Origin: Actinomycetota bacterium
GTDB taxonomy: Bacteria > Actinomycetota > Geothermincolia > Geothermincolales > RBG-13-55-18
Length of the DNA: 38,615 bases
Assembly: GCA_030019255.1 (NCBI GenBank)
Contig: JASEFK010000007.1
Coordinates: 155,601-194,215 of the forward strand
Direction: 5' to 3'
In this document: positions 7,021 through 29,434 of the stretch, one piece after another
Position numbering within the stretch: the first letter of the stretch is position 1
How the letters are laid out: every line of letters begins with the position of its first letter
Program-made: the position numbers and the translations under genes
The notes under the pieces: model-generated
What the model saw: only the letters and a program-made list of their open reading frames with translations
The model's database searches: none
Told to the model about the DNA's origin: nothing

Positions 7021-7023
7021 TCC

Positions 7024-13166: not shown

Positions 13167-13171
13167 GATGC

Positions 13172-14191
13172 CTATTTCCCTCCCACGTAATTGATGTAAA
13201 AGAGCAGGAAGCCGATGCCCACGCAGAACCCGGCCACGATCCACAGGCGGATTAGGGTGGTCACCTCCGACCATCCCTTGAGCTCAAAGTGGTGGTGCAG
13301 GGGCGCCATGCGGAAGACCCGCCTGCGGGTAGCCTTGAAAACCGCCACCTGGATGACCACCGAGGCCGCCTCCATGACGTAAAGCCCCCCCAGAACCAGG
13401 AGGAGGAGCTCCGTTTTGGAGAGCATGGCCACCGTGGCCAGGCTCCCACCCAGGGCCAGGGAACCGGTATCCCCCATGAAGATCTTGGCCGGCGGTGCGT
13501 TCCACCACAGGAAACCCACGCAGCTACCCATCACGGCCCCGGAGAAGATGGCGATATCCAGGGACCCCTTCACGTGCGGGTAGAGGAACTGATGGTTGCG
13601 GAACTGGATGAAGGCGATGAGCACGTAGGCGGTCATCACCAGGATGGTGGCCCCCGAGGCTAGCCCATCCAGGCCGTCGGTGAGGTTCACGGCGTTGGAA
13701 AACCCTATGATCATCAAGTAGACCAGGAGGAAGTAGAAGGGCCCCAGGTCGCAGAGCACGGAATCGCTCCGGAAAAAGTAGAGCTTTGTGTCCACCCCGA
13801 AATGGTTGGTGGCCAGGTAAGCCAGGGCCACGGAGAGCAGGAGCTGCCAGAAGAGCTTGTGACGGGCCTTGAGTCCCAGCGAACGGGCGTAGCGCAGCTT
13901 GGTGTAATCGTCGGCAAAGCCCAGGAGTCCGCAGCCCAGCAGGGCCAGGCCCAGGGCGAATCCGGTCCCCGTGGTCAACCTGACCGCCATGAGCAAGAAC
14001 CCCGCCAGGGTGGAGAAGGCGATGAGCACCCCTCCCATGGTGGGCGTGCCCTCCTTGGCCAGGTGGGCCTGCGGGCCGTCCTCCCTTATGAACTGTCCTA
14101 TGCCTCTCCTGCGCAACCAGCTGATGAACAGGGGCATGCCGAAGATGCACACCACCAGGCTCACCAGCAGCGCTCCCATCACCCGGTACAA
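13172..14191 (-). CDS. mraY: Phospho-MurNAc-pentapeptide translocase (lipid I synthase)
   Basis: An integral membrane enzyme that transfers phospho-MurNAc-pentapeptide to undecaprenyl phosphate; 339 residues with about ten transmembrane helices. Diagnostic segments are GTPTMGGVLIA, FADDYTKL, NAVNLTDGLDGLASG, FMGDTGSLALGG and APLHHHFELKGWSE. The start is a TTG at 14191 with AAAGG and TAGG upstream; a GTG and an ATG lie four and five codons further in. An 85-bp gap separates it from murF. Confidence 0.96.
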   Translation of the reverse strand: MYRVMGALLVSLVVCIFGMPLFISWLRRRGIGQFIREDGPQAHLAKEGTPTMGGVLIAFSTLAGFLLMAVRLTTGTGFALGLALLGCGLLGFADDYTKLRYARSLGLKARHKLFWQLLLSVALAYLATNHFGVDTKLYFFRSDSVLCDLGPFYFLLVYLMIIGFSNAVNLTDGLDGLASGATILVMTAYVLIAFIQFRNHQFLYPHVKGSLDIAIFSGAVMGSCVGFLWWNAPPAKIFMGDTGSLALGGSLATVAMLSKTELLLLVLGGLYVMEAASVVIQVAVFKATRRRVFRMAPLHHHFELKGWSEVTTLIRLWIVAGFCVGIGFLLFYINYVGGK

Positions 14192-14276
14192 AGGAGCCTA
14201 CCTTTCCACGTGCTTCAGCGCCGCGCCATCCCTTCAACCCCGCCGCGGCTCAGCGTGTATATTACCCCTTCGGCCC

Positions 14277-15677
14277 TCAGGCCACCAGGTCCAAGAGCTT
14301 CTCCAGCCCCAGGAAGCGCGAGCCCTTGATGAGTACCACGTCTCCCGGCTCGATGATGGCCCGCAGGATCTCCGCCGCCCGGTCCACGCGCTCCACGGAG
14401 AATACGCTGCCCCGCGGCAGACCACTCTCCCTCGCCGCCTGGGCGATCTTGCGCGCCCTGCGGCCCACGGTGATGAGGATGTCCGCTCCGTACTCCACGA
14501 CCATCCTGCCCACCTCCAGGTGCGCCCTCTCCGAAACGGGGCCCAGCTCGGCCATGTCCCCCAGGACGGCTATGGCCCTCTTGCCCCTGGCCAGGTCCCC
14601 CAGGGCCATCAGGGCCGAGCGCATGGAGACGGGGTTGGCGTTGTAGGCGTCGTTGATGATGGTGATCTGGTCCGGTCTGGTAATCATTTCCATCCTCCAT
14701 CCGGTCACCTTCGCCTCCTGCAATCCGGCGACTATATCCTCCGTCCTCACCCCCAGGATCTCCCCCACCGCCGCGGCCGCCAGGGCGTTCTCCACGTTGT
14801 GGCGGCCGGGCAAAGGCAGCCTCACCTCACAACTATCACCTCCCTTGAGCCGCAACAGGAACCTCGCCCTGCCCCGGTCGTCCAGGGCTACCCTCTCCGC
14901 CCGTACCTCCGCTCCCCGGCCGGTCCCGAACTTCACCACGCGACAGGAAGCCATCTTCCGCAAGAAAGGCGTGAATTCGTCATCGGCGTTGAGCACCGCC
15001 GTGCCCTCCGGCGGGAGGGCCTGCAGGAGCTCTCCCTTGGTCTCGGCCAGCCCCTCGCGGGTGCGGAACCAGCGGAGGTGGGCATAGCCTATGTTGGTCA
15101 CCACGCCTATTCCGGGCCTGGAAAAGGCGCACAGGTCGCGGATGTGACCCTTTCCCCTGGCGCCCATCTCCAGGACCAGGAAGCGGGTATCTCGCCCCGC
15201 CTTCAAGATGGTCAGGGGTACGCCGATCTCGTTGTTGTAGCTCCCCGGGGGGGAGACGACCTCCCCAGCCCGGGAGAGGACCGCCGCCATGAAATCCTTG
15301 GTGAGCGTTTTGCCGGTGGAGCCAGTGATGCCCACCACCTCGCAGTCCAGCATCTCCCGCTGCCGTCCCGCCAGCCGGGCGAGGGCGCTCAGGGTGTTCC
15401 TCACCCGAAGCACGGCCGCGCCCGCGGCCTCCGACGACCTCAAGGTGGCGGGACCTATCCTGGAGACCACCAGTGCCGCCGCTCCCTTCTCCAGCGCCTG
15501 GGGCAGGAAGTCGTGGGCGTCGTAGTTGCGTCCGCGAAGGGCGAAGAAGAGCTCCCCTTTTCTCAGGGTCCTGGTGTCCGTGGAGACCCGGGATATGCGC
15601 CGGTTGCCCCTATCGCCGAGGTACACGACCTCCGCCCCCACGGCTTGCGCTATCTCCTCCACGGTCATGGGTATCAT
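14277..15677 (-). CDS. murF: UDP-MurNAc-tripeptide--D-alanyl-D-alanine ligase
   Basis: A Mur ligase of 466 residues that adds the D-Ala-D-Ala dipeptide made by Ddl. The N-terminal segment VSTDTRTLRKGELFFALRG, the P-loop ITGSTGKTLTKDFMAA, MGARGKGHI, and INDAYNANPVSMRSAL followed by VLGDMAELG are characteristic of MurF. The ATG at 15677 overlaps the murE stop as ATGA, with GGAGGAGG about 12 nt upstream. A second ATG three codons later is possible. Confidence 0.96.
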   Translation of the reverse strand: MIPMTVEEIAQAVGAEVVYLGDRGNRRISRVSTDTRTLRKGELFFALRGRNYDAHDFLPQALEKGAAALVVSRIGPATLRSSEAAGAAVLRVRNTLSALARLAGRQREMLDCEVVGITGSTGKTLTKDFMAAVLSRAGEVVSPPGSYNNEIGVPLTILKAGRDTRFLVLEMGARGKGHIRDLCAFSRPGIGVVTNIGYAHLRWFRTREGLAETKGELLQALPPEGTAVLNADDEFTPFLRKMASCRVVKFGTGRGAEVRAERVALDDRGRARFLLRLKGGDSCEVRLPLPGRHNVENALAAAAVGEILGVRTEDIVAGLQEAKVTGWRMEMITRPDQITIINDAYNANPVSMRSALMALGDLARGKRAIAVLGDMAELGPVSERAHLEVGRMVVEYGADILITVGRRARKIAQAARESGLPRGSVFSVERVDRAAEILRAIIEPGDVVLIKGSRFLGLEKLLDLVA

Positions 15678-17170
15678 GTCCTGCCCAGCCTCCTCCGCAG
15701 CGCCTTTCCGGCTTCCTCCACGTCGTCGAAGGGGACCACGCGGTCGGCGAAGATCTGCCCCCGCTCGTGGCCCTTCCCGGCGATGACCACCACGTCGCCG
15801 CTTTCGGCTTCCCCCACCGCCATCTCGATGGCCTCCCGGCGGTCCGGAACCACCCGCCAAGAACCGCCCTCGCCGGCCCGCCGGGCTCCCTTCTCGATCT
15901 CTTCGATGATAGACAGAGGATCCTCGCTCCGGGGGTTGTCGGAGGTGATGATGGCCAGGTCGGCCAGGCGCACGGCGATCTCCCCCATGAGGGGCCGCTT
16001 GCCCCGGTCCCGATCCCCCCCGCATCCGAAGACCACAATCAGCCTGCCCCGGCTGATGGCCCGTGCCGCCTCCAGGACCCGGCGCAGGGAATCCGGGGTA
16101 TGAGCGTAGTCCACCAGCACGGCGAAATCTTGACCCTCCTCCACGGCCTGGAAACGCCCAGGTACCCCGGGATGGGAGAGGATGCCCGCCAGGCTGGCGG
16201 AGGGGTCCAGCCCCAGGAGGATGCAGGCGGCCAGGGCAGCGAGGATGTTCTGGAGGTTGAAAATCCCGGTCAGCGCCGTCTCCCCTTCCTCCTCCCAGCC
16301 TTCGTATCGCACCCGTACCCGTGAGGACTTAAGGCCCGCCTCCAGGAGCCAGCCCCGCAGGCGGGCTTCCTCACCCGTCCCGAAGGTCAACACCTCGCCC
16401 TCCAGGCTCGCAGCCAGGCGGCGCCCGTAGGGATCGTCGGCGTTCACCGCCGCCGCGGCCGCCCCCAGGCCACCCATGGAGCGGGGCAGGAAAAGCATTT
16501 CCTTCGTCCTGTAATATTCTTCCATATGGCGGTGGAAATCCAGGTGATCCTGGCTGAGGTTGGTGAACACCGCCACCCGGAACTCGCAGCCCTCCACCCG
16601 GCGCAGGGCCAGGGCGTGGGAGGAGACTTCCATGGCCGCCACGCCGCACCCCGCCTCCACCATATCTGCCAGGATGCGCTGCAGGTCCGCCGACTCCGGG
16701 GTGGTGCGCTCCACCGGCAGCTCCCGCCCCGCCACCCGGTAGGTGACCGTCCCTATGAGTCCCGCCTTTATCCCGCAGCGCGTGGCCGCCGCCTCCACCA
16801 GGTGGGTGGTGGTGGTCTTGCCGTTGGTGCCAGTAACCCCCACCAGGGCCAGTTTCCCGCTGGGATGTCCCCAGAAGCGGTCGCTCAGAAGCGCCAGGGC
16901 CAGGCGGGTGTCGACCGCCCGCACCAGGGCTGTATCTGGAGGTAGCGGGAGGGGCACCTGGCGCCCTTCCTCCACCACCAGTCCCACGGCCCCCCTCTCC
17001 AGCGCCTCCTTAAGGTATAGATGTCCGTCGGTGCGGAAGCCGGGCACGGCCACGAAGAGGTCTCCCGGCCTCACCCGGGCGGAATGGTAGGCCAGGCCCC
17101 CGATCTCGACATCGGCTCCCCCCGAAAACCTCAGGCCCTCTAGCCCTTCTAGGAGACGGGAAAGCTTCAT
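15674..17170 (-). CDS. murE: UDP-MurNAc-tripeptide synthetase, meso-DAP type
   Basis: A Mur ligase of 498 residues that adds the third amino acid of the stem peptide. The P-loop GVTGTNGKTTTTHLVE and the sequence TTPESADLQ fit the family. The substrate-selecting motif at 411-414 is DNPR (in ITSDNPRSEDP), which in characterised MurE enzymes marks meso-diaminopimelate rather than L-lysine. This suggests A1-gamma-type peptidoglycan, as inference. The ATG at 17170 overlaps the ftsI stop as ATGA and the 3' end overlaps murF the same way. Confidence 0.97.
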   Translation of the reverse strand: MKLSRLLEGLEGLRFSGGADVEIGGLAYHSARVRPGDLFVAVPGFRTDGHLYLKEALERGAVGLVVEEGRQVPLPLPPDTALVRAVDTRLALALLSDRFWGHPSGKLALVGVTGTNGKTTTTHLVEAAATRCGIKAGLIGTVTYRVAGRELPVERTTPESADLQRILADMVEAGCGVAAMEVSSHALALRRVEGCEFRVAVFTNLSQDHLDFHRHMEEYYRTKEMLFLPRSMGGLGAAAAAVNADDPYGRRLAASLEGEVLTFGTGEEARLRGWLLEAGLKSSRVRVRYEGWEEEGETALTGIFNLQNILAALAACILLGLDPSASLAGILSHPGVPGRFQAVEEGQDFAVLVDYAHTPDSLRRVLEAARAISRGRLIVVFGCGGDRDRGKRPLMGEIAVRLADLAIITSDNPRSEDPLSIIEEIEKGARRAGEGGSWRVVPDRREAIEMAVGEAESGDVVVIAGKGHERGQIFADRVVPFDDVEEAGKALRRRLGRT

Positions 17171-18882
17171 TGCCGTACCACCCTGTCGCTGGTATTGCGT
17201 TTTTCCTGGCTGGGAGTAATTACCAGATGCTGCAGGGAGAATTCCATAACCCTCGAAAAGCAGGGGGCGGCGGCCAGCCCCCCGTATACCTGCGCCGGCT
17301 CGTCAAGGGTGATTACCGCCACCAGGCGGGGGTCCTCTGCCGGGGCGAAGCCGGCGAAGCTGGCGATGTAAGCCTCTCGGTAGCCGCCCCTGGGGTCGGG
17401 TTTCATGGCCGTGCCCGTCTTGCCCCCGCAGTTGTAAAGGCTCATGGAGGCGCGGGTCCCGGTCCCCACCCGCACTACCTCCCCCAGGATATGGCGGAGA
17501 GAGGCGGCGGTGTTCTCGGAGATCACCCGCTGCTCACCCTCCACCCGGTTTTCCTCCCGGGTTCCATCGGGATGGATCACGCAGCGCAGGAAATGCGGCC
17601 GGACCATCGTCCCCCCGTTGGCCACCGCGGCCATCACCACCGCCAGCTGGAGGGGGGTCACGGCTATACCCTGCCCGATGGCCACGGTGGGAAGGGTGGT
17701 GGCCGTCCAGGCCTCCGGGTCCGGCACCTTACCTGCCGCCTCCCCGGGGAAATCCACCCCGGTGGGGGTTCCCAGGCCGCACCGGCGCAGGTATTCCACC
17801 ATGGCCTCCTTCCCCAGGCTCATGGCCGTCTTGATGGTTCCCAGGTTGGAGGAATGGGCAATCACCTCGGTGAAGGTCAAGTCGCTCCTGGGCATGGGGT
17901 GATCGTCCTTGAACTCGTATTTCCCCACCTGGATGGAGGGTGGTATGTGGATCACCGAACCCGGCGTGACCACCTGTTCCTCCAGGGCGGCCATGGCCGT
18001 CACCACCTTGAGCACCGACCCGGGCTCGAAGGCGTCGGTGACGGCGCGGTTGCGGGTCAGAGCGGGATCCGTCTCCGGGTAGGCGTTGACGTCGAAGTGC
18101 GGAAAGGTGGCCATGGCCAGTATCTCCCCCGTGCGGCAATCCATGACCAGGCCCGTGCCGCCCTTGGCGCCGCTGCCCTCGACAAACAACTTAAGCTGCT
18201 CCTGGAGCTTGAACTGTATCTCGGAATCGATGCTTAACTGGATGTCGCAGCCATCCACGGGCTTCTTTATCATCCTGGTCACCCCGGGAATGGGATCGCC
18301 CCTGGGATCCACTTCCAGCTCCGCCTGGCCCTCCTCGCCGGCCAGGAGCCCCTCATACTGGAGCTCCACCCCGGCCAGGCCCACGTTGTCCGTGCCCACG
18401 TATCCCAGGACCTGGCAAGCCAGCTCCTTCTGGGGGTAGAACCTCTTGCTCTCCTTCTCCAGGCCGATGCCCTGGATCCCTAGGGCCTCCACCTTCTCCG
18501 CCGTATCCGGATCCGTCTTTCTAGCCAGGTAAACGAAACCGGAGCCGGAGCGAAGCTTCTCCTCTATCTCCTGCCTGGGTTTTCCCAGCACCAGAGAGAG
18601 GTCGGCGGCCGCGGCGCCGGCGTCCTCTATCAGGTAGGGAATGGCATAAATGGAATAAGCTTCCTGGCTGATGGCTAACACCTCACCGTCGCGGTCTAGG
18701 ATGGAGCCGCGCCGAGGCTTGAGGTCCGCGAAATGCTGCCTCTGCTCCCTGGCCAGGGCTTCGTAGCGGTCGGTCTTAAGGACCTGGAGGTAAACCAAAC
18801 GGTAGGCGATGAAGCCGAAAGCGGCCATCAGGAGCAGGGCTGCCAAGTTTATCCTGGCATCCCTGTTTTTTCCTTTCGACAC
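17167..18882 (-). CDS. ftsI: Division transpeptidase FtsI / class B PBP
   Basis: A bitopic class B penicillin-binding protein that cross-links septal peptidoglycan; 571 residues. One N-terminal helix (about 11-32) is followed by the dimerisation region (RRGSILDRDGEVLAISQE). The transpeptidase domain has the three active-site motifs: SVLK with the nucleophile Ser289 and Lys292, SSN at 344-346, and KTG at 488-490. No PASTA repeats follow. The GTG at 18882 lies five bases after a perfect AAGGAGG. A 98-bp gap separates it from ftsL and a 4-nt overlap joins it to murE. Confidence 0.96.
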   Translation of the reverse strand: MSKGKNRDARINLAALLLMAAFGFIAYRLVYLQVLKTDRYEALAREQRQHFADLKPRRGSILDRDGEVLAISQEAYSIYAIPYLIEDAGAAAADLSLVLGKPRQEIEEKLRSGSGFVYLARKTDPDTAEKVEALGIQGIGLEKESKRFYPQKELACQVLGYVGTDNVGLAGVELQYEGLLAGEEGQAELEVDPRGDPIPGVTRMIKKPVDGCDIQLSIDSEIQFKLQEQLKLFVEGSGAKGGTGLVMDCRTGEILAMATFPHFDVNAYPETDPALTRNRAVTDAFEPGSVLKVVTAMAALEEQVVTPGSVIHIPPSIQVGKYEFKDDHPMPRSDLTFTEVIAHSSNLGTIKTAMSLGKEAMVEYLRRCGLGTPTGVDFPGEAAGKVPDPEAWTATTLPTVAIGQGIAVTPLQLAVVMAAVANGGTMVRPHFLRCVIHPDGTREENRVEGEQRVISENTAASLRHILGEVVRVGTGTRASMSLYNCGGKTGTAMKPDPRGGYREAYIASFAGFAPAEDPRLVAVITLDEPAQVYGGLAAAPCFSRVMEFSLQHLVITPSQEKRNTSDRVVRQ

Positions 18883-18980
18883 CTCGTCCTCCTTGGATGC
18901 CCGAGCCGCGCGGCATGGCGGCCATATGATGAATTTCGCCAGTAGGCGCGCTCAACCCTTCAAGCTCGTACTGCTTCGGT

Positions 18981-19478
18981 TCAGATACCTCCTTCTTCCG
19001 GTCCGTCCACCCTGGCCTGGACCTCCGGAACCGCCGCCTCCCGCTCCCGAAGCTTCCTCTCCACGGCTGCGCGGTAGGCGGGGGTCTGCAGGTACTCCGC
19101 TCTTTCCACGTGGACCATCCCCAGCCTGCTCACGGCCTCCCTCTCTATCCTTCCCGGGGACTCAAGGGAAGCGATCTCCAGGCGCAAGGCGTCCTGCCGA
19201 CGCCTTTCCAGTTCGATCTCCCTCTGGGACTCCCGCAGGCGCACCTCGTTCTGCACCACGCCTACGTGCAGGACGACGGTCAACAGCAGTATCCCGCTGG
19301 CCAGGAGGGCCACTGCCAGAAAGGCCGTGAAGATCAGCCTGGACCTCCTGGCTCTTTCCATTTCCTTCCTGACGGCCTCTTCCCGGCGCCGCCTTTCCTC
19401 CAAGCGCCGCCTTTCCTCTCCCAGCGCGGGGTCGGACAGACACTTCCACTCCAGGGCCAGGGACAACTCGTTCCTCAC
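18981..19478 (-). CDS. ftsL: FtsL-like divisome protein
   Basis: A small bitopic protein of 165 residues. It has a charged, coiled N-terminus (EERRRLEERRRREEAVRKEM), one transmembrane helix at about 50-72 (FTAFLAVALLASGILLLTVVL), and a periplasm-side coiled coil (NEVRLRESQREIELERRR). A region with ESPGRIEREAVSRLGMV follows, as in FtsL/DivIC proteins. Sequence conservation in this family is low; the call rests on topology and on the place between rsmH and ftsI. The GTG at 19478 overlaps the rsmH stop as GTGA. The cytoplasmic part is longer than in many FtsL proteins. Confidence 0.85.
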   Translation of the reverse strand: MRNELSLALEWKCLSDPALGEERRRLEERRRREEAVRKEMERARRSRLIFTAFLAVALLASGILLLTVVLHVGVVQNEVRLRESQREIELERRRQDALRLEIASLESPGRIEREAVSRLGMVHVERAEYLQTPAYRAAVERKLREREAAVPEVQARVDGPEEGGI

Positions 19479-20416
19479 CTCTTTTCCGCCGCCCGCAGCT
19501 TGGCGCTCCTCGAACGGGGGTTGGCCTCCCTCTCCTCTGGGCCTGGCCTGACCGGTCCGGGTGTGAGCAGGCGCAGCTCCTCTTCCCTGCCGCAGTCACA
19601 TTCCCGGTCCATCGCGCAGGCGCACCTCGAGCCCCGTTCGGCCATGAATCTCTTCACCATCCTGTCTTCCAGGGAGTGGTAGGAGATGACCACCAGCCTT
19701 CCACCCCTCCTCAGGACCCGCACCGCCTGTGGCAGCACCGCCTGCAGGTTGTGGAGCTCACCGTTGACCTCTATGCGCAAGGCCTGAAAGGTCCTGCGCG
19801 CCGGATGTCCGCCCCGCCGGCGCGCCGCGGCGGGAATGGAATCCCTCACAATCTCAGCCAGTCGATCCGTGGTGTCGATGGGTGCGCGCTCTCTCTGGAC
19901 AGCGATGCTCCGAGCGATACGGGAAGCCCAATGCTCCTCGCCGTACTCGCGGATAATACGCGCCAGCTCTCTCTCCTCATACTCGTTCACCACCTTCCAG
20001 GCATCCAGATCCTGGTCTGGGTCCATGCGCATGTCCAGGCGCCCGCTCAGCCGGTATGAGAACCCCCTCTCCGGGGAATCGAGCTGCAGGGAGGATACCC
20101 CCAGGTCCAGGAGCACGCCGTCCACGCTTCCCACCCCCAGTTCCTCCAGCACTTCCTGCAGGGAAGCGAAGTTGGCGCGTCGCAGGACGAGGGCGGAGGA
20201 GAATTCCCGCAGGCGCTCCCGCGCCCTCGCCAGGGCCTCCCCGTCCACGTCCAGGCCGATCAGGCAACCCTTTCCCCCCATCTCCCGCAGGAGGGCCAGG
20301 GCGTGCCCCCCCTCCCCGATGGTGGCGTCCACCAGGACGCTCCCGGAGCGGGGGCGCAGGAAGCCCACCACCTCCTGGCTGAGTACCGGAACATGGCTCA
20401 AATCACCTTCGCCCAT
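19475..20416 (-). CDS. rsmH: 16S rRNA (cytosine-1402 N4) methyltransferase
   Basis: A SAM-dependent methyltransferase of 313 residues (formerly MraW) that modifies C1402 in the ribosomal P site. The SAM-binding motif DATIGEGGHA (31-40), LLDLGVSSLQLDSPERGFSY, the segment ARRTFQALRIEVN and ISYHSLEDRMVKRF are diagnostic. The ATG at 20416 has only a weak GGA upstream; an in-frame TTG a few codons later has a better GAAGGTGA. It follows mraZ after 118 bp and is coupled to ftsL. Confidence 0.97.
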   Translation of the reverse strand: MGEGDLSHVPVLSQEVVGFLRPRSGSVLVDATIGEGGHALALLREMGGKGCLIGLDVDGEALARARERLREFSSALVLRRANFASLQEVLEELGVGSVDGVLLDLGVSSLQLDSPERGFSYRLSGRLDMRMDPDQDLDAWKVVNEYEERELARIIREYGEEHWASRIARSIAVQRERAPIDTTDRLAEIVRDSIPAAARRRGGHPARRTFQALRIEVNGELHNLQAVLPQAVRVLRRGGRLVVISYHSLEDRMVKRFMAERGSRCACAMDRECDCGREEELRLLTPGPVRPGPEEREANPRSRSAKLRAAEKR

Positions 20417-20535: not shown

Positions 20536-20967
20536 TCAGAATCCGAACTCCGCCAGCCTCTCCCCGCTCTGCTCCAGCTTCTCGATGCCCCCGCGCATGG
20601 ATTCCTCCCACCGCTCTCGGTTCCAGATCTCCACGCGGTTCATCACCCCAACTACGACCACCTCCCTGTCCAGGCCGGCCATCTGGCGGAGCCTGGGAGG
20701 GATGGTCAGCCTTCCCTGGCGGTCGGGGACCGCCTCCCCGGCGTTGCCGAAGAGCACCCGGGCCATCTGCCGCCTCTCGCGGCTTCCCTCCGGGAGGGCC
20801 TCCATCTTGGCCATCAACTTCTCAAACTCCTGGCGGGGAAAGACGGCCAGGCATTCCTCGAACCAGAAGACCATGACCGCCCCTTCCTCCAGCCTGGAAC
20901 GGAAGCGGGCGGGCATGATCACCCTTCCCTTCTCATCGATGCTGTGCTCATAGGTCCCCAGGAACAT
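20536..20967 (-). CDS. mraZ: Transcriptional regulator MraZ
   Basis: A 143-residue regulator with two SpoVT-AbrB domains, one at each end (GTYEHSIDEKGRVIMPARFR and EAVPDRQGRLTIPPRLR). Members form ring-like oligomers that bind tandem repeats upstream of their own gene and usually repress the dcw operon. The repeats are visible here at 21070-21107, over and just downstream of the predicted -10. The ATG at 20967 follows GAGGGAACGGATAAGG. It is the first gene of the cluster. Confidence 0.96.
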   Translation of the reverse strand: MFLGTYEHSIDEKGRVIMPARFRSRLEEGAVMVFWFEECLAVFPRQEFEKLMAKMEALPEGSRERRQMARVLFGNAGEAVPDRQGRLTIPPRLRQMAGLDREVVVVGVMNRVEIWNRERWEESMRGGIEKLEQSGERLAEFGF

Positions 20968-21311: not shown

Positions 21312-22616
21312 TCAGGAGACGGGCAGGAGGCCTTGCGGCTCGCCGCCGACCGCGGAGGCCTTGGCCTTAAGCCACTTTTCCACCAGGTAGGGCTTCAGGA
21401 GCTCGAACGCCTCCGCCTGGCGTTCCACCATCTGCTCCGCCTCCAGGTTGGACATGTTGCGGGTCCGCAGGGCGAAGTCGGCGGTGCGGGCGCAGTAGAT
21501 GGGTATCAGGGCCTCCACCACCTCCCGGCTGGAGAGGCCGCAGTCGAAGTTGTAGGCCACCGCAAAATCATAGACCGCCCGGGCCCAGACGCCCTCGGGA
21601 AGGGAGAAGTCCTCCTCCCGAGCTCGGGCGGCGAGGGCCAGCTCCATGAAAACGGCTGGATCGAGGACCCTCTCCCATACCTCCCGGTACTCGGCGAAGC
21701 CGGCCTGGAAGTGATCGATGAGGTTCTCCACGTTGATCTCCATGCTGGCCGGCTCCGCGTAGCGCGGGTCCCCGAAGATGCGCGTGGCGGTGGAGCCCCG
21801 GACCTGCATCCATTTCACCTCGTGTTCCCCCATGAGATAGAAGATGGTCGAAGCCACCTGGGTGAACATGGAGCCCAGGTCACTCCCCGGGTCCTTCACG
21901 TTGTGCACCTTGACTCCCATGGCCGATTGGCAGACGCGGAAACCCTCGGTGATGGCCGTGGTGGTCATCCATATATCGATGCCGAACTTGGCGATGTCTG
22001 ACTGCCAGACTTTCATGTGGGAGTAAATGAGGGCCAGGGAACCGGTGAAGCCGAAATCCCCCCCGATGGGCTGGCGGATGCGCCTCCCGTACAAGGTCCT
22101 GGTGAGGGGATAGGCCAGGTTGTTGGTGATGGTCCCGTCATATTTGTGGCGTATGTAGTAGGGAGCCACGAACCCATAGCTCCCCTTCCATACCGGTTCG
22201 CCGAGGAGCCTTATCCATTCCGGGGTGATGCTGCGCAGGTCCGAGTCCACCACCACGCAGATGCGGGCGCCCAGGCGGACGGCGATCTCGAAGATGGCGT
22301 GAAAGGCGGAACCCTTGCCCGGCAAGCCCCGGTAGGGGGTGACGATCTTCTCCACCCCTGGAGGCACGGGCGTATCCAGGACCACCTGCACCGTGTCGTC
22401 GGTGGAACCGCCGTCGGAATTGACCAGCACCGGTTTCAAGCCGGGGAAATAGCGCACCATGCCCTCGGCTGCGGTGCGCACCACGTGGGCTATGGTCTCC
22501 GCGTTGCGGAAACTGGGAATCCCCACCAGTATGTCGGCGCGCCCTATCTCCCGGCAGCGCGCGATTACCTGGGGGTCGAGCACCGATCGCGAGTCGTCAA
22601 GCTCCATGATCTCCAC
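21312..22616 (-). CDS. GT-A glycosyltransferase, GT81-like (glucosyl-(phospho)glycerate synthase type)
   Basis: A 434-residue glycosyltransferase with a GT-A fold. VGIPSFRNAETIAHVV starts the nucleotide-binding domain. The PGKGSAF loop, the metal-binding DSDLRS, QPIGGDFGF and FGIDIWMTTTAI match the order of motifs in GT81 glucosyl-3-phosphoglycerate synthases (PGKGEA, DSDL, QPLSGEY, YGVEIGL). Those enzymes make glucosylglycerate precursors used as compatible solutes or for polysaccharides. The C-terminal 150 residues are helical and longer than in mycobacterial GpgS. The start is a GTG at 22616; an ATG at 22607 directly behind GTGGAG is an alternative. The acceptor (3-phosphoglycerate, glycerate or another) cannot be told from sequence alone. 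It follows another glycosyltransferase after 47 bp. Confidence 0.65.
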   Translation of the reverse strand: MEIMELDDSRSVLDPQVIARCREIGRADILVGIPSFRNAETIAHVVRTAAEGMVRYFPGLKPVLVNSDGGSTDDTVQVVLDTPVPPGVEKIVTPYRGLPGKGSAFHAIFEIAVRLGARICVVVDSDLRSITPEWIRLLGEPVWKGSYGFVAPYYIRHKYDGTITNNLAYPLTRTLYGRRIRQPIGGDFGFTGSLALIYSHMKVWQSDIAKFGIDIWMTTTAITEGFRVCQSAMGVKVHNVKDPGSDLGSMFTQVASTIFYLMGEHEVKWMQVRGSTATRIFGDPRYAEPASMEINVENLIDHFQAGFAEYREVWERVLDPAVFMELALAARAREEDFSLPEGVWARAVYDFAVAYNFDCGLSSREVVEALIPIYCARTADFALRTRNMSNLEAEQMVERQAEAFELLKPYLVEKWLKAKASAVGGEPQGLLPVS

Positions 22617-22663: not shown

Positions 22664-23905
22664 TCATCCCCGCCCCCCGGCGTCGAACAGGGCCTCCATG
22701 AACTCCCGCAACTCTCGGGCGGAAGCCAGGAAGTCCATAAGCTTCTCCCATCGCTCCCTCCATGCAAGGTACCACCGGAAGGGCGAGGCGGGAAAGCGGC
22801 TCAAATCCTTGGACCGCATCAGATTGGCCATGCTCTCCCGGTAGCCCTCCCGGTCGTCCCTGGAAAGATAATCCATGCCCATGAGCACGCAGGTCCGGTA
22901 AACGAGCTCCTCCAGGTCCTCCCGGAGGAAGCGTCCCGGGTAGGGCTCCAGTTCCTCCACCTCCACCCTACGGCAGCCCGCCGCCGGCTCCTGGGAACGC
23001 AGCTTTTCCCTGGTGTAGAGAAAGCGGTCCAAGTCCTCCCGGAAGCGACGCCAGAGGGGTGCGGTCTTGGGAGGCGGGAGATGGCGTATCCAGAGGGTAT
23101 TGTCCAGGAAAAAGCGGTACCCGAAGAAGGCAGCGTTTATGAGGTAATCTATATCCTCCCCCCTCGGAACGTGGGGATCGAAGGCCACCTTCATGTACAG
23201 CTCGCGGTGTACCACCATGTTCCCGCCGAAGACCCAGGAGGTCGGCCGGAGGCGATCCGGACCCTCGATGATCTCGAAGGCCCGGTTCATGTACTCCACC
23301 GCGGGCCACTCCGCGAGCACCGGTTCGACGTTGGGGGGAAGGCGGTAACCGCCGTCACGGTTCACGTAGTAACCGGCCAGGCCACCGACGAAGCTGCCCC
23401 CGTACACACCGCCGATGTTCTCGGCCACCTTTTCCAGGTAATGGGGGTCCTCGTAGACCTCATCGTCGTCGAAGAGCACCGCGGCATCCGCTCCGCTGAG
23501 GCAGGCCACCACCAGGCACAGGTTGCGTATGTTGGAATAGCCCCGCAGGGAGATCATCCCGGCCGTCTCCGACCCCTGCGCCTTCTCCACCTTCGCCCGC
23601 AACTCCCTTTCCTGGCGGTGGGTAAAAAGGGCGAGAGGAAAATGCTTCCGGTAAGGAGACACCAGCGCCTCCAGCTTCTCCTCCACCTCGCTCTCCAATT
23701 CGGGGTGGGTCGCCGCACCCAGCACCACCACCCGGAAATCCGGGTAGCGGAGCAGGCGGATGCTCTCCAGGGCACGGGCCAGGGTCCCTTCGGTGTCCAC
23801 CGGCGTGGGGTGGTCGTAAACGGCGTCCTCGGGATGGAAGGGCTCACCCCTCTTCCTCCCCCAGTAGCTGGGGATGACCAGGGTAAAGGACTTGGTTCCG
23901 GGCAT
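22664..23905 (-). CDS. GT2-like glycosyltransferase of unknown acceptor
   Basis: A 413-residue soluble protein with a GT-A type nucleotide-sugar domain. SFTLVIPSYWGRK opens the first strand, followed by LVVACLSGADAAVLFDDDEVYEDP, which holds the DxD metal site. Later come FGGNMVVHRELY and PRGEDIDYLINAAFFGYRF, where the acidic residues could serve as catalytic base. A helical C-terminus of about 120 residues follows. The ATG at 23905 has AAGGAGG about 15 nt upstream; the frame is open for about 100 more codons but these are low-complexity noise. A strong hairpin lies just before the ribosome site. It is probably cotranscribed with the GT81-like gene. I do not recognise a specific function. Confidence 0.7.
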   Translation of the reverse strand: MPGTKSFTLVIPSYWGRKRGEPFHPEDAVYDHPTPVDTEGTLARALESIRLLRYPDFRVVVLGAATHPELESEVEEKLEALVSPYRKHFPLALFTHRQERELRAKVEKAQGSETAGMISLRGYSNIRNLCLVVACLSGADAAVLFDDDEVYEDPHYLEKVAENIGGVYGGSFVGGLAGYYVNRDGGYRLPPNVEPVLAEWPAVEYMNRAFEIIEGPDRLRPTSWVFGGNMVVHRELYMKVAFDPHVPRGEDIDYLINAAFFGYRFFLDNTLWIRHLPPPKTAPLWRRFREDLDRFLYTREKLRSQEPAAGCRRVEVEELEPYPGRFLREDLEELVYRTCVLMGMDYLSRDDREGYRESMANLMRSKDLSRFPASPFRWYLAWRERWEKLMDFLASARELREFMEALFDAGGRG

Positions 23906-24194: not shown

Positions 24195-25241
24195 TCACGG
24201 CTCCGCAAGCGGATCGGTACCGCGACGCCCCAGCGCCTCGGGGTTCATCACGTTGCGGGGCTCTCCCCGGTAAAAGGAGACCACGTTCTCCACGGCCATG
24301 GCCGTCATGCAGTCCTTGGCTTCCCTGGTGTTGAAAGCGATGTGTGGAGTGAGGACCACGTTCTCCATGGCCGCCAGCTCGCCCAGGTCGGGGTGAGGTT
24401 CGCCGGGGTAGTTGTCCAGCCCCGCGCCGAAAAGCCTCCCCTCCCTCAGGGCAGCGGCCAGGGCCTGCAGGTCCAGGACCTCTCCCCGGCTGGTGTTCAC
24501 CAGTATGGAGCCTGGTTTCATGAGGGCGAGCTCCCTCTCCCCGATGAGGTTGCGGGTCTCCGGCGTGTAGGCCACGTGCAGGCTTACGATGTCGCACCGG
24601 GACAACAGCTCGTCGAGCTCCAGGTAGGTCGTCGTGTTCTCCATTTCCGGCTGCCGCCGGGGATCGTAATAGAAGACCCGCATGCCCAGGGAGCTGCAGA
24701 GACGGGCCATCTCCCGGCCCACCGCCCCCAATCCCACTAGCCCGATGCTGCGGCCCGAAACCTGTACGCCTTCCCTCTCCGCCGAGGTCCAGCGTCCCGC
24801 CCGGAGGTCGCGGTCTCCCCGGGCGATGTTGCGGGCCACGGCGAGGATGAGTCCCAGGGCGTGCTCGGCCACCGAACGGTTGCCGTAATTCGGGGTATTG
24901 GTCACCACGATGCCCCGCCGGGTGGCCTCGGGGATGTCCACGAAGCTGGCCGCCCCCACTCCGATATAGGAAATTATTTCCAGTTGGGGGCAGGAGGCCA
25001 GCACCCCGGCGTCCAGCCTGGACCAGTCCAGGAATACGGCATGGGCGTCGCGGACGCGCTCCAGGAGCAGGTGGCTCTCCTCCAGGCGGTTCTTGTAATA
25101 ACGGTAGGATCCGAACTCGAGCAAGGGCTCCAGGACCCTCTCGAACCCCTCTTCCCCGGCGATGAACTCCAACCCGTCCAGGAAGACGAAGGTGCGGTCC
25201 GCTCCGGGACCCCTTCCGGCGCGCTCTCCCAGCAGGGGCAT
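24195..25241 (-). CDS. D-isomer-specific 2-hydroxyacid dehydrogenase
   Basis: An NAD-dependent dehydrogenase of 348 residues that interconverts a 2-keto acid and a D-2-hydroxy acid. The Rossmann motif GLGAVG is at 170-175, and Asp193 at the end of the next strand favours NAD over NADP. The catalytic triad is visible as Arg252 (NTSRGEV), Glu281 (LDNYPGEP) and His300 (LTPHIAF). Members include phosphoglycerate, hydroxypyruvate/glyoxylate and D-lactate dehydrogenases; the sequence does not decide between them. There is no C-terminal ACT domain, so it is not a regulated SerA. The ATG at 25241 has GAGG 7 nt upstream and lies 9 nt after hisC. Confidence 0.88.
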   Translation of the reverse strand: MPLLGERAGRGPGADRTFVFLDGLEFIAGEEGFERVLEPLLEFGSYRYYKNRLEESHLLLERVRDAHAVFLDWSRLDAGVLASCPQLEIISYIGVGAASFVDIPEATRRGIVVTNTPNYGNRSVAEHALGLILAVARNIARGDRDLRAGRWTSAEREGVQVSGRSIGLVGLGAVGREMARLCSSLGMRVFYYDPRRQPEMENTTTYLELDELLSRCDIVSLHVAYTPETRNLIGERELALMKPGSILVNTSRGEVLDLQALAAALREGRLFGAGLDNYPGEPHPDLGELAAMENVVLTPHIAFNTREAKDCMTAMAVENVVSFYRGEPRNVMNPEALGRRGTDPLAEP

Positions 25242-25250
25242 GAGTCGGCC

Positions 25251-26354
25251 TCAACCTCCCCCGGAGATCTCCCGGAGAGCCGCCTCCAGCCTCCGGTTCT
25301 GCTCCTCGTCGCCGATGGTGATGCGCACGTGGCCCGGAATCCCCAGCGCCGCCCCGTCCCTGACGATTATCCCCCGCCGCAACAGTTCCATGAACAGGTC
25401 GGGGTGCTCACCGTTCTCCACCAGGATGAAGTTGGCCTGGGTGGGGACGTAGCGGAAACCACATTCTTCCAGTACACGGTAGAGGTGGAGCTTGCCCTTC
25501 CGGTTCATCTCCCGCGACCTTTCCAGGTGCTCCGTGTCCCGCAGCGCCGCCTCTGCCGCCGCCTGAGCCAGGCGGTTGACGTTGAAGGGGAGCTTGACCC
25601 TCTCCAGGGCTTCCCGTACGGGAGGCGAGCATAAAGCATAACCCACGCGCAGGCCGGCCAGCCCGTAGATCTTGGAGAAGGTGCGGGTGATCACCAGGCG
25701 TGGATCGGCGGTGAAATATCGCAGGGAGTCCGGGTGTTCGGGATCGTCCACGTATTCCAGGTAGGCCTCGTCCAGGACCAGGAGCACTTCTTGGGGCAGT
25801 CCGGAGAGGGCCTCCTCCAGCTCCGCTTCGCTGACCGTGGTGCCGGTGGGGTTCAGGGGCGAGCAGAGGATCATCATCTTGGTGCTCTCGTTCACCGCCT
25901 GCAGCATGGCCCGGACGTCCTGGCGGTATTCCCGCAGGGGCACCCTGACCACCTCGGCCCCCATGGTCCTGGCGGCCAGCTCGTAGGAGGAGAAGGTGGG
26001 GTCCCCCACCACCACCCGGTCCCCGCGGTCGAGGAAGGCGTAGGCCAGGAGGTCGAAGGCCTCGTCCGCCCCGTGGGTGACCAGTACACGGTCGGTACCC
26101 ACTCCAAGGTGGTCGGAGAGGGCCTCGCGGAGGCGGACGCACGCCGAATCCGGGTAGAGGTGCGCCGTGGAAAGAGCCTCCCTCACCGCCTCCATGGCCA
26201 GGGGGCTGGGTCCCAGGGGGTTCTCGTTGGAGGCCATCTTCACGCAGTCGGTAACGCCCAGCTCCCGGGCCACCTCCTCGGGGGACTTGCCCGGGCTGTA
26301 GACGGGGAGGTCCCTCACCTCCTCGCGAAGCAGCCGTTCCACGTCAAAACTCAT
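25251..26354 (-). CDS. hisC: Histidinol-phosphate aminotransferase
   Basis: A PLP-dependent class I/II aminotransferase of 367 residues that makes L-histidinol phosphate in histidine biosynthesis. Family motifs are MASNENPLGPSP near the N-terminus, CSPLNPTGTTVS, DEAYLEYV and the PLP lysine Lys228 in TRTFSKIYGLAGLRVGYAL. The C-terminus NFILVE and RDGAALGIPGHVRITIG is typical. The ATG at 26354 overlaps the stop of the phosphoesterase gene as ATGA. Some HisC-like enzymes act on aromatic amino acids instead; hisG four genes upstream supports the histidine role. Confidence 0.92.
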   Translation of the reverse strand: MSFDVERLLREEVRDLPVYSPGKSPEEVARELGVTDCVKMASNENPLGPSPLAMEAVREALSTAHLYPDSACVRLREALSDHLGVGTDRVLVTHGADEAFDLLAYAFLDRGDRVVVGDPTFSSYELAARTMGAEVVRVPLREYRQDVRAMLQAVNESTKMMILCSPLNPTGTTVSEAELEEALSGLPQEVLLVLDEAYLEYVDDPEHPDSLRYFTADPRLVITRTFSKIYGLAGLRVGYALCSPPVREALERVKLPFNVNRLAQAAAEAALRDTEHLERSREMNRKGKLHLYRVLEECGFRYVPTQANFILVENGEHPDLFMELLRRGIIVRDGAALGIPGHVRITIGDEEQNRRLEAALREISGGG

Positions 26355-27121
26355 CGGTGGAGGTGCACGTATCCTTCCCGCTTGTAATAGGCCACGTTGA
26401 TGACCCTGGTCTCCCCTATACGTAACTCCCGCTGCGCCGGCTGGTGGACGTGTCCGTGGTAGAGGTAGGCGGGCGCGTTTTCTTCCAGGTAATGCAGCAG
26501 GGTGGCGCTCCCCTCCACCGGCCTTCCCGCCACCACGTCGAAGAGGGCTTCCTCCACCCGAGGCGGTATGTGGGTGCAGAGCACCTCCACGGCTCCCAGC
26601 TCCTCGAGCCGGGCGCCGAATTCCCGGTCCTCCATCTCCGCTGGCATGCGGAAGGGAGAATACACGGCCCCGGGAACGAACCCGAAGACGCTGCCGCCTA
26701 TCTCCACCCTCCCCTCGGCCAGCAGCGCGTTCTCCACCCCCCGCAGGGCCTCGGCGAGAAGTTCCGGCAGGTCGCCGTTGCCGTAGATCACGTAAGCCCG
26801 ACATCCGGTCCGACGCAGGGCGGCGGCGAATTCCCCGTACTGCTCCCAGGCGCGCTCCAGTATTGCGTGGTAATACTTACCATGTGGGGATATAATCTCC
26901 TCGCGGAGCTCGATCGCCGCTTCCGGCCCCTTCTTCATCGTCGCGAGCAGTTTTTCCACCAGCCTATCCCGGCCCACCACCTCGGGAAGGATACCGCTCA
27001 AGTCCGCCCAGTCGACGAGATCCAGGATGTCGCCCAGCACCAGGAGGACGTCCTCATCTTTCACCTCGTCCCGCAGATCGGAGTACCGGCCGTGCAGGTC
27101 GGCTACCAGCTTCACCGCCAT
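26351..27121 (-). CDS. Calcineurin-like metallophosphoesterase
   Basis: A 256-residue metallophosphoesterase. The metal-binding motifs appear in order: ADLHG (DxH), VLGDILD (GD), YGNGD (the GNH[D/E] site, with Gly in place of the usual catalytic His), CTHIPP (H) and YHGHVHQP (GHxH). The substitution in the third motif recalls YfcE-like GNCD enzymes and may indicate phosphodiesterase activity. A helical insert of about 60 residues separates the GD and GN motifs. The ATG at 27121 follows the upstream stop by one base and the 3' end overlaps hisC. The substrate is unknown; a role as histidinol-phosphate phosphatase is possible from context only. Confidence 0.85.
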   Translation of the reverse strand: MAVKLVADLHGRYSDLRDEVKDEDVLLVLGDILDLVDWADLSGILPEVVGRDRLVEKLLATMKKGPEAAIELREEIISPHGKYYHAILERAWEQYGEFAAALRRTGCRAYVIYGNGDLPELLAEALRGVENALLAEGRVEIGGSVFGFVPGAVYSPFRMPAEMEDREFGARLEELGAVEVLCTHIPPRVEEALFDVVAGRPVEGSATLLHYLEENAPAYLYHGHVHQPAQRELRIGETRVINVAYYKREGYVHLHR

Positions 27122-27122
27122 C

Positions 27123-28073
27123 TCAGGACGTCCCCCCGCTCTCCGCGCCGCGGTATACGGCTATCTCCCCGCAAGCCAGGGACCTGGCGTCGCGCAGCGC
27201 CTCCACGGCACAGGTGTACAGCCTCTCCGGAAAACGCACCTTGTCGGGGAAGGAAGCCAGCCCCCAGTAAAGCTCCGGGCTCTCTCCGCCCGGTACCCTC
27301 GGTGGCAGCTCCTTTTCCAGGTAGCGGCAGAGCCTTTCGGCCATCACCTTTCCGCCCCGCCACCCCGTTTCGGGAAGCAGAATGGCGAAGCTGGCCTCCC
27401 CCATGCGGGCGATGACGTCGCAGTCGCGGGTCAGGCGCGAGATCACCGAAGCGATGTAGCGCAGGGTCTCGTCGGCACTCTCCTTTCCCAGTCTTCCCAC
27501 CAACCGGTGATAGTTCCCCACCTCGCAGAGGACCAGGGTTATCTCGTGCCTGTAGCGCACCGAGCGCCGGAGCTCCTCCATCATGCGGCCGTGAAAGTAA
27601 TTCTGGTTATAGAGTCCGGTCACTGGGTCACGTAGGGGGTTCTCCATGATCTCCCTTGAGCTCTGGTAATGATAGGCGGCGGCGGCGGCCTGCAGCAGGT
27701 TGTCGAAGGAGGCATTTATCTTCTTCTCCAGTTGGAAATCCACCACCCGCTTCATGTCCACGGACTGGTGGAAGAGGTTCCAAAACTCGTTGCGCAGGAT
27801 GACGTGCTCCTGCACCAGCTCCTCCACCGAGAACCCCTGCCGGAAGCGCAGCTTTCCCATCTCTCCGGCCAGGCGGTACATCTCTCCCCCCGGTTGGAAG
27901 GACGCGACCTCCTCCTCGTTCTCCACCATGGCCAGAAACGCGGAAGCCAGCCTTTCCAGGTGCTCACCCGCCTCCCCGTTCACCAGCTGTATGTGCGCGG
28001 GCACCGGGAGGCGCTGAATCTCCTCCCTCCAGCGTTCCAGGAGCTCCCGTGCCCGGTCACGCAAGCTCGTCAT
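27123..28073 (-). CDS. RsbRD-like sensor with degenerate GGDEF domain
   Basis: A 316-residue soluble protein. Residues 1-135 are helical and resemble the RsbRD/RsbU-type N-terminal sensor domain (FRQGFSVEELVQEHVILRNEFW). Residues 148-310 are a GGDEF fold starting at DPVTGLYNQNYF. The active-site motif is GEASF (225-229) instead of GGDEF, and the usual metal-binding Asp positions of the DxDxFK strand read CEVGNYHR, so cyclase activity is very unlikely. The product-binding I-site RxxD is kept as RDCD (216-219), exactly five residues before the motif. The ATG at 28073 has AGGAGGAG upstream; the gene lies 9 nt after hisG and 1 nt before the phosphoesterase. A c-di-GMP receptor role is inferred, not shown. 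Confidence 0.85.
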   Translation of the reverse strand: MTSLRDRARELLERWREEIQRLPVPAHIQLVNGEAGEHLERLASAFLAMVENEEEVASFQPGGEMYRLAGEMGKLRFRQGFSVEELVQEHVILRNEFWNLFHQSVDMKRVVDFQLEKKINASFDNLLQAAAAAYHYQSSREIMENPLRDPVTGLYNQNYFHGRMMEELRRSVRYRHEITLVLCEVGNYHRLVGRLGKESADETLRYIASVISRLTRDCDVIARMGEASFAILLPETGWRGGKVMAERLCRYLEKELPPRVPGGESPELYWGLASFPDKVRFPERLYTCAVEALRDARSLACGEIAVYRGAESGGTS

Positions 28074-28082
28074 ATCTCCTCC

Positions 28083-28961
28083 TCAGGGGATAATCTTGGT
28101 TATGGGTACTTCCACGATATCCTCGGCGCCCCGCCTGGCCAGCTCGGGGATGAGGAGGTTGATGCCCTTCTTCTCCACCACGCTCTCCACGGCGTAAAAG
28201 TCCTTCTGGAAAAGCCTGGAAAGCGTGGGTGCCTTCATGGAGGGGAGCACCTCCATGACCGCTTCCAGGTCCTTCTCGGCCACGTTGAACTTTATGAGCA
28301 CCTTGCCCCTGGCGTTCAGGGCCCCGAGGATGAGCAGCTTTATCTCCTCCATGAGCCGCCTCTTCTCGGGGTCGGCGTAGCTCTCGCGGTTGGCGATCAG
28401 CCGGGTGGTGGACTCAAGCACCGTGTCGATGATGCGCAGCCCGTGCTTGCGCAGGGTCCCCCCGGTCTCGGTGAGCTCCACCACCGCGTCGGCCATCTCC
28501 GGCACCTTGGCCTCCGTGGCTCCGTAGGAGAGGTAGACGGCGGCGTGCTTGCCCAGCCTCCGGAAATACTCCTCCACCAGGTTGGGATACTCGGTGGACA
28601 CGCGCACCCCGTCCGGGAGGTCCTCGGGGCGTTGGTAGGGGGAGTCGCCGGCCACCGCCAGCACCACCCGGACCACGGTTCCCACGGCGGTCTTGGTGTA
28701 GGGGAGGTCTGCCAGCTCGACCACCTGGGCCCCCGTCTCCCTTATCCAGTCGTAGCCGGTGATGCCCAGGTCAAAGAAGCCCTCCTCCACATACTTGGGT
28801 ATCTCCTGAGGGCGTAGGATGCGCACCTGCTCTATACGGGGATCGTCGATGCGGGCGTGGTACTCGCGATCCCCGCTGCGCCTGACGGTCAAGTCGGCGT
28901 CGTCCAGTATCTCCATGGTGGTGCTTTCCAGGCTGCCCTTGGGGATGACGAATTTCAGCAT
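28083..28961 (-). CDS. hisG: ATP phosphoribosyltransferase, long form
   Basis: The first enzyme of histidine biosynthesis, joining ATP and PRPP; 292 residues. LKFVIPKGSLESTTMEIL opens the catalytic domain, with the segment DLGITGYDWI and the PRPP-binding region AVVELTETGGTLRKHGL. The C-terminal about 75 residues (KVLIKFNVAEKDLEAVMEVL onward) are the regulatory HisG_C domain that binds histidine, so this is the hexameric long form that does not need HisZ. The ATG at 28961 has AGAGGAG upstream; the frame is open beyond it without support. Histidine feedback at the protein level is expected from the family. Confidence 0.96.
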   Translation of the reverse strand: MLKFVIPKGSLESTTMEILDDADLTVRRSGDREYHARIDDPRIEQVRILRPQEIPKYVEEGFFDLGITGYDWIRETGAQVVELADLPYTKTAVGTVVRVVLAVAGDSPYQRPEDLPDGVRVSTEYPNLVEEYFRRLGKHAAVYLSYGATEAKVPEMADAVVELTETGGTLRKHGLRIIDTVLESTTRLIANRESYADPEKRRLMEEIKLLILGALNARGKVLIKFNVAEKDLEAVMEVLPSMKAPTLSRLFQKDFYAVESVVEKKGINLLIPELARRGAEDIVEVPITKIIP

Positions 28962-28984: not shown

Positions 28985-29350
28985 TCAAAGCCCCGGCTCC
29001 TCCCTCTCCTCCAGCTCCCTTCCGTAGGCGTCGGTGATGCGGTAGGTGTCGTCCTCGCTGGTGAAGCCGATGTCTATCTCCAGGACCCTGCCCCTTCCAC
29101 GCAGGGCTTTTATCTTGTGCCTTTTCTCGGCGGGAATCATGAACTCCTCGCCCTCGACGGGACGGAAGGTCTCCTCCCCGATGGTGACCTCCAGCCCGCC
29201 ATCCAGGATTATCCATACGTCGTCGCGCAGCTTGTGGTAATGAAGGCTGGTCTCCTGGCCGGGGTTGATGGTGATGAGTTTCACCGTGCAGGGCTGGTTC
29301 AGGGCGTAGGCCCGGATGGTACCCCAGGGCTTCTCCAGGATCACCTTCAT
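28985..29350 (-). CDS. Cupin protein, mannose-6-phosphate isomerase type II-like
   Basis: A 121-residue single-domain cupin that resembles the C-terminal isomerase part of type II phosphomannose isomerases. WGTIRAYALNQPCTVKLI precedes the first cupin motif PGQETSLHYHKLRDDVWIIL, where the HxH is present and Asp replaces the usual Glu. The second motif EFMIPAEKRHKIKAL supplies the last histidine. The ATG at 29350 has GAGGAG 8 nt upstream; a GTG directly before it is the alternative. Whether it isomerises sugars or only binds a metal is uncertain. It lies 23 nt before hisG and about 84 nt after the hydrolase. Confidence 0.8.
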   Translation of the reverse strand: MKVILEKPWGTIRAYALNQPCTVKLITINPGQETSLHYHKLRDDVWIILDGGLEVTIGEETFRPVEGEEFMIPAEKRHKIKALRGRGRVLEIDIGFTSEDDTYRITDAYGRELEEREEPGL

Positions 29351-29434
29351 CACCTCCTCTCCTCGCCCACCGCGGCCGTAGGCGCGACCTCTCGCCGCTC
29401 GGACAATGCTCCCTCGCGGCCGCCCCTCGAACGG

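Follow-up and report, generated by a model that had tools for sequence, protein, structure and literature searches.

We identified that X, a 316-aa protein encoded on the minus strand of an Actinomycetota contig, is probably a soluble receptor for c-di-GMP that derives from a diguanylate cyclase and is catalytically dead. Its gene (27123..28073) lies in the window, by which we mean the whole stretch of 38,615 nt that was analyzed (contig JASEFK010000007.1 of GCA_030019255.1, positions 155,601-194,215). We infer binding of c-di-GMP from the alignment of X with its homologues: the I-site is frozen, the catalytic positions evolve fast, and the relatives outside the class are mostly canonical, and it is this combination that makes a receptor the probable identity of X. 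A preliminary description of the same DNA had read X as a c-di-GMP receptor evolved from a cyclase, and the comparison supports that reading, with the I-site kept in 26 of 26 homologues next to a degenerate catalytic site. The apparent loss of the catalytic site, the constraint on the I-site, a single origin in the class, and a conserved gene order are each supported by sequence comparison.

The open reading frame of X has an ATG start preceded by a GGAGGAG ribosome-binding site. The Pfam scan returned RsbRD_N and GGDEF only, namely an RsbRD_N-like helical N-terminal domain at residues 3-94 (27792..28067, minus strand; PF14361, E 3e-8, 34.7 bits against a gathering cut-off of 24.3) and a catalytically degenerate GGDEF domain at residues 148-297 (27183..27632, minus strand; PF00990, E 4.4e-22, 79 bits against a cut-off of 23.8). 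The AlphaFold model (pLDDT 86.9, pTM 0.82) has an all-helical N-terminal part with a GGDEF fold behind it, and in Foldseek it superposed on the c-di-GMP-bound GGDEF structure 3ign with an rmsd of 2.0 and a TM-score of 0.88 of the target. The N-terminal domain matched that of RsbR (2bnl) weakly, with an E-value of 0.012, and taken alone this part of X suggests a sensor or dimerization module. X thereby shares an RsbRD_N-type helical N-domain (PF14361, and weakly 2bnl) with the RsbR-type stressosome sensors but differs from them in having no STAS domain, and because the STAS domain is absent, neither the partner-switching input once proposed for X nor a partner-switching output is supported.

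In place of the active-site motif GG[DE]EF, X carries GEASF (residues 225-229; 27387..27401, minus strand). Only F229 of this motif is invariant among the 26 homologues, whereas the first four columns vary (rate ranks 99-131 of 155), the homologues having GEASF, GEGSF, SDGGF, ENGKF, SQAEF, and others at this position. In PleD numbering, which we presume to apply and which is consistent with the printed motif, X has A for E370, V for N335, and E for G369, and across the X family the residues for guanine contact and the second metal ligand (E370) have either been lost or show no conservation. D201 of the window's X happens to match PleD D344, a position that is unconserved among the homologues and is the fastest-evolving site of the GGDEF domain (155 sites, 26 homologues). 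Over the eight catalytic positions the mean rate was 1.73, compared with 0.95 for the rest of the domain and 0.14 for the I-site. The preliminary description had stated that the active motif and the metal-binding aspartates were lost; the motif is indeed replaced and the second metal ligand gone, but X has Glu (E184) at the first metal Asp (PleD D327), as do 17 of 17 homologues of the window's taxonomic order, which by alignment is a conservative change. X does not combine the GG[DE]EF motif, the metal Asp/Glu, and the guanine-contact Asn/Asp that mark an active diguanylate cyclase.

In contrast to the catalytic positions, the I-site is intact. The primary I-site RxxD of X is RDCD, R216-D219 (27417..27428, minus strand; PleD R359-D362), and exactly five residues (VIARM) stand between it and GEASF, the arrangement already recognized in the preliminary description. 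The secondary I-site arginines lie in the R170-R173 segment (27555..27566, minus strand), where R170 and R173 are the equivalents of PleD R313 and WspR R198, and at R247 (27333..27335, minus strand), the equivalent of PleD R390. PleD R313, R359, D362, and R390, whose numbering we take to be correct, and WspR R198, read from the alignment, map without gaps to R170, R216, D219, R247, and R173 of X, respectively. Homologues without a conserved RxxD had been named as the finding that would count against a receptor; R216 and D219, and also R170, R173, and R247, are kept in all 26, whose tree covers 11.5 substitutions per site. These five residues rank 4-10 of 155 by site rate in the GGDEF domain and differ from the rest of the domain with a Mann-Whitney p of 1.3e-4, in a test that treats sites as independent and is descriptive rather than blind, the I-site set having been chosen from the known structures of PleD and WspR when the invariance of the columns was already visible. 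X thus presents the sequence features of a degenerate-GGDEF I-site receptor, that is, a degenerate motif (26 of 26 homologues), the RxxD spacing, and the secondary arginines. R213 is a sixth invariant arginine, found at that position in just 1 of 22 canonical domains, and P146-D149 and T236 are likewise invariant among the homologues. RxxD was present in 22 of 22 canonical GGDEF domains sampled from these organisms, so the RxxD of X is inherited; the evidential weight lies in its retention after the putative loss of catalysis and not in its presence, and the invariance of the I-site could partly reflect fold constraints.

Of 31 genomes searched from the class Candidatus Geothermincolia, 26 encode a single X homologue each and 5 have none. 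Relatives with named records belong to Candidatus Solincola, whose NCBI class is Candidatus Geothermincolia, and to other Actinomycetota MAGs. In a midpoint-rooted tree, the 26 homologues form one clade (support 99/99) against the RsbRD_N-GGDEF proteins of other classes. Those proteins of other Actinomycetota classes are the closest relatives of X, with the same architecture and with RxxD in nearly all, but the nearest full-length ones mostly keep DIDxF (DxDxF) together with GGDEF, AGDEF, or GxDEF-like motifs, and the examined ones do not lie beside hisC or dcw genes. One of them, the diverged L042, departs from this pattern and lacks RxxD. Given the single clade and the mostly canonical-like relatives outside it, a single loss of catalysis at the root of the Geothermincolia clade is the most likely history.

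The genome that carries the window encodes at least 2 canonical GGEEF cyclases, gave 7 HD-GYP-type hits, and contains no EAL domain. An EAL phosphodiesterase was therefore ruled out as a partner of X, HD-GYP-type domains being present instead, and the canonical cyclases and HD-GYP-type domains suggest that a c-di-GMP pool exists and that c-di-GMP is probably both made and degraded in the source organism.

The genes around X in the window are on the minus strand. Upstream are hisG (28083..28961; TIGR00070, HisG_C), the only copy in the genome, and a mannose-6-phosphate isomerase-like cupin (28985..29353; PF01050), which synteny marks as a conserved upstream neighbor. Downstream are a calcineurin-like metallophosphoesterase (26351..27121; PF00149), hisC (25251..26354; TIGR01141, 332 bits against a cut-off of 277), of which the genome has no other copy over the cut-off, a PGDH-like 2-hydroxyacid dehydrogenase (24195..25241; PF02826/PF00389), and the glycosyltransferases GT (22664..23905) and GT2b (21312..22616). 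The run on this strand continues through an mraZ-like ORF (20536..20967), identified as the first dcw gene by its sequence and its position before rsmH, into a complete dcw cluster (6031..20416; Pfam) of the order rsmH(mraW)-ftsL-ftsI-murE-murF-mraY-murD-ftsW-murG-murC-murB-ddl. The close spacing reported for these genes was confirmed, with 9 nt between the end of hisG (28083) and the start of X (28073), 1 nt between the end of X (27123) and the start of the phosphoesterase (27121), and a 4-nt overlap between the phosphoesterase, which ends at 26351, and hisC, which starts at 26354. No other his genes were seen in the window's hisG-hisC block. The phosphoesterase was considered as the missing histidinol phosphatase, a role weakened by a PHP-type HisJ-family protein over cut-off elsewhere in the genome. 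Four promoter-like sites were detected in the window against 1.1 expected, and terminators were near chance level; on the minus strand, promoter-like sites occur only before mraZ (21222-21194) and before GT2b (22654-22625) and are too weak to delimit transcription units.

GT is a soluble glycosyltransferase of the GT-A fold with a DDD motif, assigned from the alignment, weak GT2 Pfam hits, and AlphaFold and Foldseek. It has many invariant columns among homologues and a model of pLDDT 90.9; searches by sequence, profile included, gave no PDB relative, no Pfam family scored above cut-off, and the Foldseek matches of the model were generic GT-A structures with modest TM-scores. GT is an uncharacterized family of its own. 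GT2b is distant kin of glucosyl-3-phosphoglycerate synthase (NF010496, E 1.8e-12, below cut-off).

Across the class, the genes around X have 2 arrangements. In the window's taxonomic order (17 loci), they run cupin-hisG-X-phosphoesterase-hisC-PGDH-GT-GT2b where the assembly permits, with a hisG-X gap of 9-65 nt and a conserved X-phosphoesterase gap; 1 of these genomes (G012) has no hisC downstream of X. At the 9 loci of the other branch, X is followed by hisC after 4-22 nt, usually with the cupin upstream and with GT-GT2b downstream, and hisG and the phosphoesterase are absent from the X locus. The X-linked hisC was the sole over-cut-off copy in 6 checked X-bearing genomes of this branch. The preliminary description had placed X in a histidine operon, which is partly supported, in that hisG and hisC are genuine, each the sole over-cut-off copy, and hisC neighbors X, directly or past the phosphoesterase, in 24 of 26 loci, with one more split by a contig break. 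However, adjacency to hisG and the phosphoesterase is limited to the window's order, and the wider conserved block, cupin-X-hisC-GT-GT, runs on into mraZ and the dcw cluster in the window and at most assembled loci of its order. The run-on to rsmH was seen at most loci of the window's order for which the assembly and the fetched sequence reach far enough, and at 2 loci of the other branch (G022 and G028), with hisC followed by rsmH and no glycosyltransferases between them in G022.

Further, several genomes carry related loci without X. In G015, which belongs to the window's order (L198, G015:C74), the genes run hisG-phosphoesterase-hisC-mraZ, and X, PGDH, GT, and GT2b are all missing, a gene set that suggests joint loss or the ancestral state. 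G021 and G030 have cupin-hisC-GT-GT2b and G018 has hisC-GT, all without X. Since X-less genomes keep these hisC or hisC-GT loci, X is an add-on regulator that is dispensable for those hisC/GT pathways rather than a required part. In the window, mraZ and the dcw cluster are immediately preceded by the 2 glycosyltransferase genes, and the run hisC-GT-GT2b-mraZ recurs in the class, including the X-less G030. Five loci of the other branch (L140, L141, L143, L144, and L146) have an extra GT2b-like gene, 38-39% identical to GT2b, after GT2b, giving 3 glycosyltransferase genes in a row.

We weighed c-di-GMP reception by X against 3 other functions of its GGDEF domain. X may be a dead scaffold, in which the GGDEF fold is a protein-protein module for RsbRD_N and binds no c-di-GMP; the lost active site, the inheritance of RxxD from canonical relatives, and the invariance of several other residues are all in line with this, but it is unlikely given that 5 scattered I-site residues are all invariant while neighboring functional residues changed freely. 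Reception of another nucleotide, such as (p)ppGpp or GTP, at the remnant of the A-site or at the I-site has precedents in the PleD structures 9g85 and 9g86, which hold c-di-GMP plus ppGpp or pppGpp, and in CC3396, whose degenerate GGDEF domain binds GTP (PMC7288161), and E184 stays Glu throughout the order. We nevertheless find it improbable, as few parts of the domain are as poorly conserved as the guanine-contact positions N335 and D344 and the GG loop. Most improbable is a diguanylate cyclase still active with an unusual motif: the AGDEF protein VCA0965 was reported active (PMC3974145), whereas X has lost the equivalents of E370, N335, and G369 altogether, its D344 position lacks conservation, and the motif differs even within the class.

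For X as a c-di-GMP receptor, the following mechanism can be proposed. Canonical cyclases elsewhere in the cell would supply c-di-GMP, which, following the pattern of PleD, WspR, and PelD, would dock at the RxxD I-site in the form of an intercalated dimer and bridge 2 GGDEF domains, or GGDEF and RsbRD_N. Dimerization and/or a second signal may come from the RsbRD_N module, and ligand-bound X would then act through protein contact on co-translated partners. Because its gene heads a conserved histidine, sugar-transfer, and cell-wall block, X probably lets c-di-GMP control those activities of the block. The choice of any single output partner is speculative, a matter of guilt by association, and tentative at best, with the glycosyltransferases and the envelope pathway (PelD-like control of glycan or the cell envelope) as the first candidates and HisC after them.

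One sub-case of the receptor reading, with which its probability overlaps, is that X targets histidine biosynthesis by binding HisC (or HisG) and tuning flux. The position of hisC after X, or after X and the phosphoesterase, in 24 of 26 loci and at 1 split contig, the gaps of 4-22 nt in one branch and of 9-65 nt from hisG upstream in the window's order, and the status of hisG and hisC as the genome's only over-cut-off his copies favor such a target. We regard it as rather doubtful, since hisG is adjacent in one taxonomic order only and the locus also contains glycosyltransferases and often dcw genes, since G015, G018, G021, and G030 retain a hisC locus without X, and since c-di-GMP control of His enzymes was not found in the literature searched. 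The histidine enzymes are no more likely to be the output than the glycosyltransferases or envelope synthesis, and with glycosyltransferase genes after hisC and envelope genes downstream, a PelD-like envelope output is the most attractive. The farthest-reaching version, in which a class-wide RsbRD_N and dead-GGDEF receptor heading a hisC-glycosyltransferase-dcw supercluster would tie cell-wall or division functions directly to c-di-GMP, seems to us unlikely as a whole.

Effectors of c-di-GMP are hard to predict from sequence. A degenerate GGDEF domain with a retained I-site is already known from PelD, PopA, and BcsE. PelD, in which RxxD and one additional arginine bind dimeric c-di-GMP and which has a glycosyltransferase complex under its control (PMC7112168, PMC8461298), resembles X in its dead GGDEF domain, intact RxxD, extra arginine, and operon with glycosyltransferase genes. 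In Bacillus cereus, PelD binds c-di-GMP with a KD of about 100 nM despite its degenerate GGDEF domain, and R363A, D366A, and R395A abolish this binding (PMC7112168). Unlike X with its RsbRD_N domain, PelD has transmembrane helices and a GAF domain and is encoded with pel genes, of which the X locus has none, containing instead hisG, the phosphoesterase, hisC, 2 GT-A enzymes, and dcw genes. PopA, a cell-cycle effector of Caulobacter, shares a PleD-like degenerate GGDEF domain and binds c-di-GMP at RxxD (PMC12564702), but PopA is of the response-regulator type, sends CtrA to proteolysis, and lacks the RsbRD_N domain of X. BcsE, a c-di-GMP receptor in cellulose synthesis (PMC8461298), is soluble like X and has a dead GGDEF-like domain with a conserved I-site, but differs in its N-terminal part and in its cellulose operon.

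The combination of RsbRD_N with a dead GGDEF domain, its class-wide fixation, and its hisC-GT-dcw setting were undescribed in the open-licence literature searched, which is weak evidence, and that literature yielded no relevant papers on RsbRD with GGDEF, Candidatus Solincola, or the dcw cluster with hisC. The X family would represent a clean switch from enzyme to apparent receptor inside one class, with the catalytic site relaxed and the binding site frozen, in a lineage of Actinomycetota that has no cultured model species. Its candidate outputs, HisC, 2 uncharacterized glycosyltransferases, and the cell-wall and division cluster, were not described as controlled by c-di-GMP in any of the literature searched; if true, X would extend the action of c-di-GMP on envelope synthesis in Actinomycetota beyond the known Streptomyces regulators.

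Other altered GGDEF domains were also observed. Three families of the phylum, f24, f50, and f69 (L186-L193, L196, and L197), comprise RsbRD_N-GGDEF proteins in which the glycines are altered (GEDEF, GYDEF, STDEF, GLDEF, GVDEF, and AGDEF) but DEF and RxxD are intact, and which may be cyclases in the course of losing their activity. The genome of the window encodes a second degenerate GGDEF domain (L069, G000:C3:184467-184943), whose active motif is replaced by YQGHTF while its REVD I-site is intact, making it another candidate c-di-GMP receptor.
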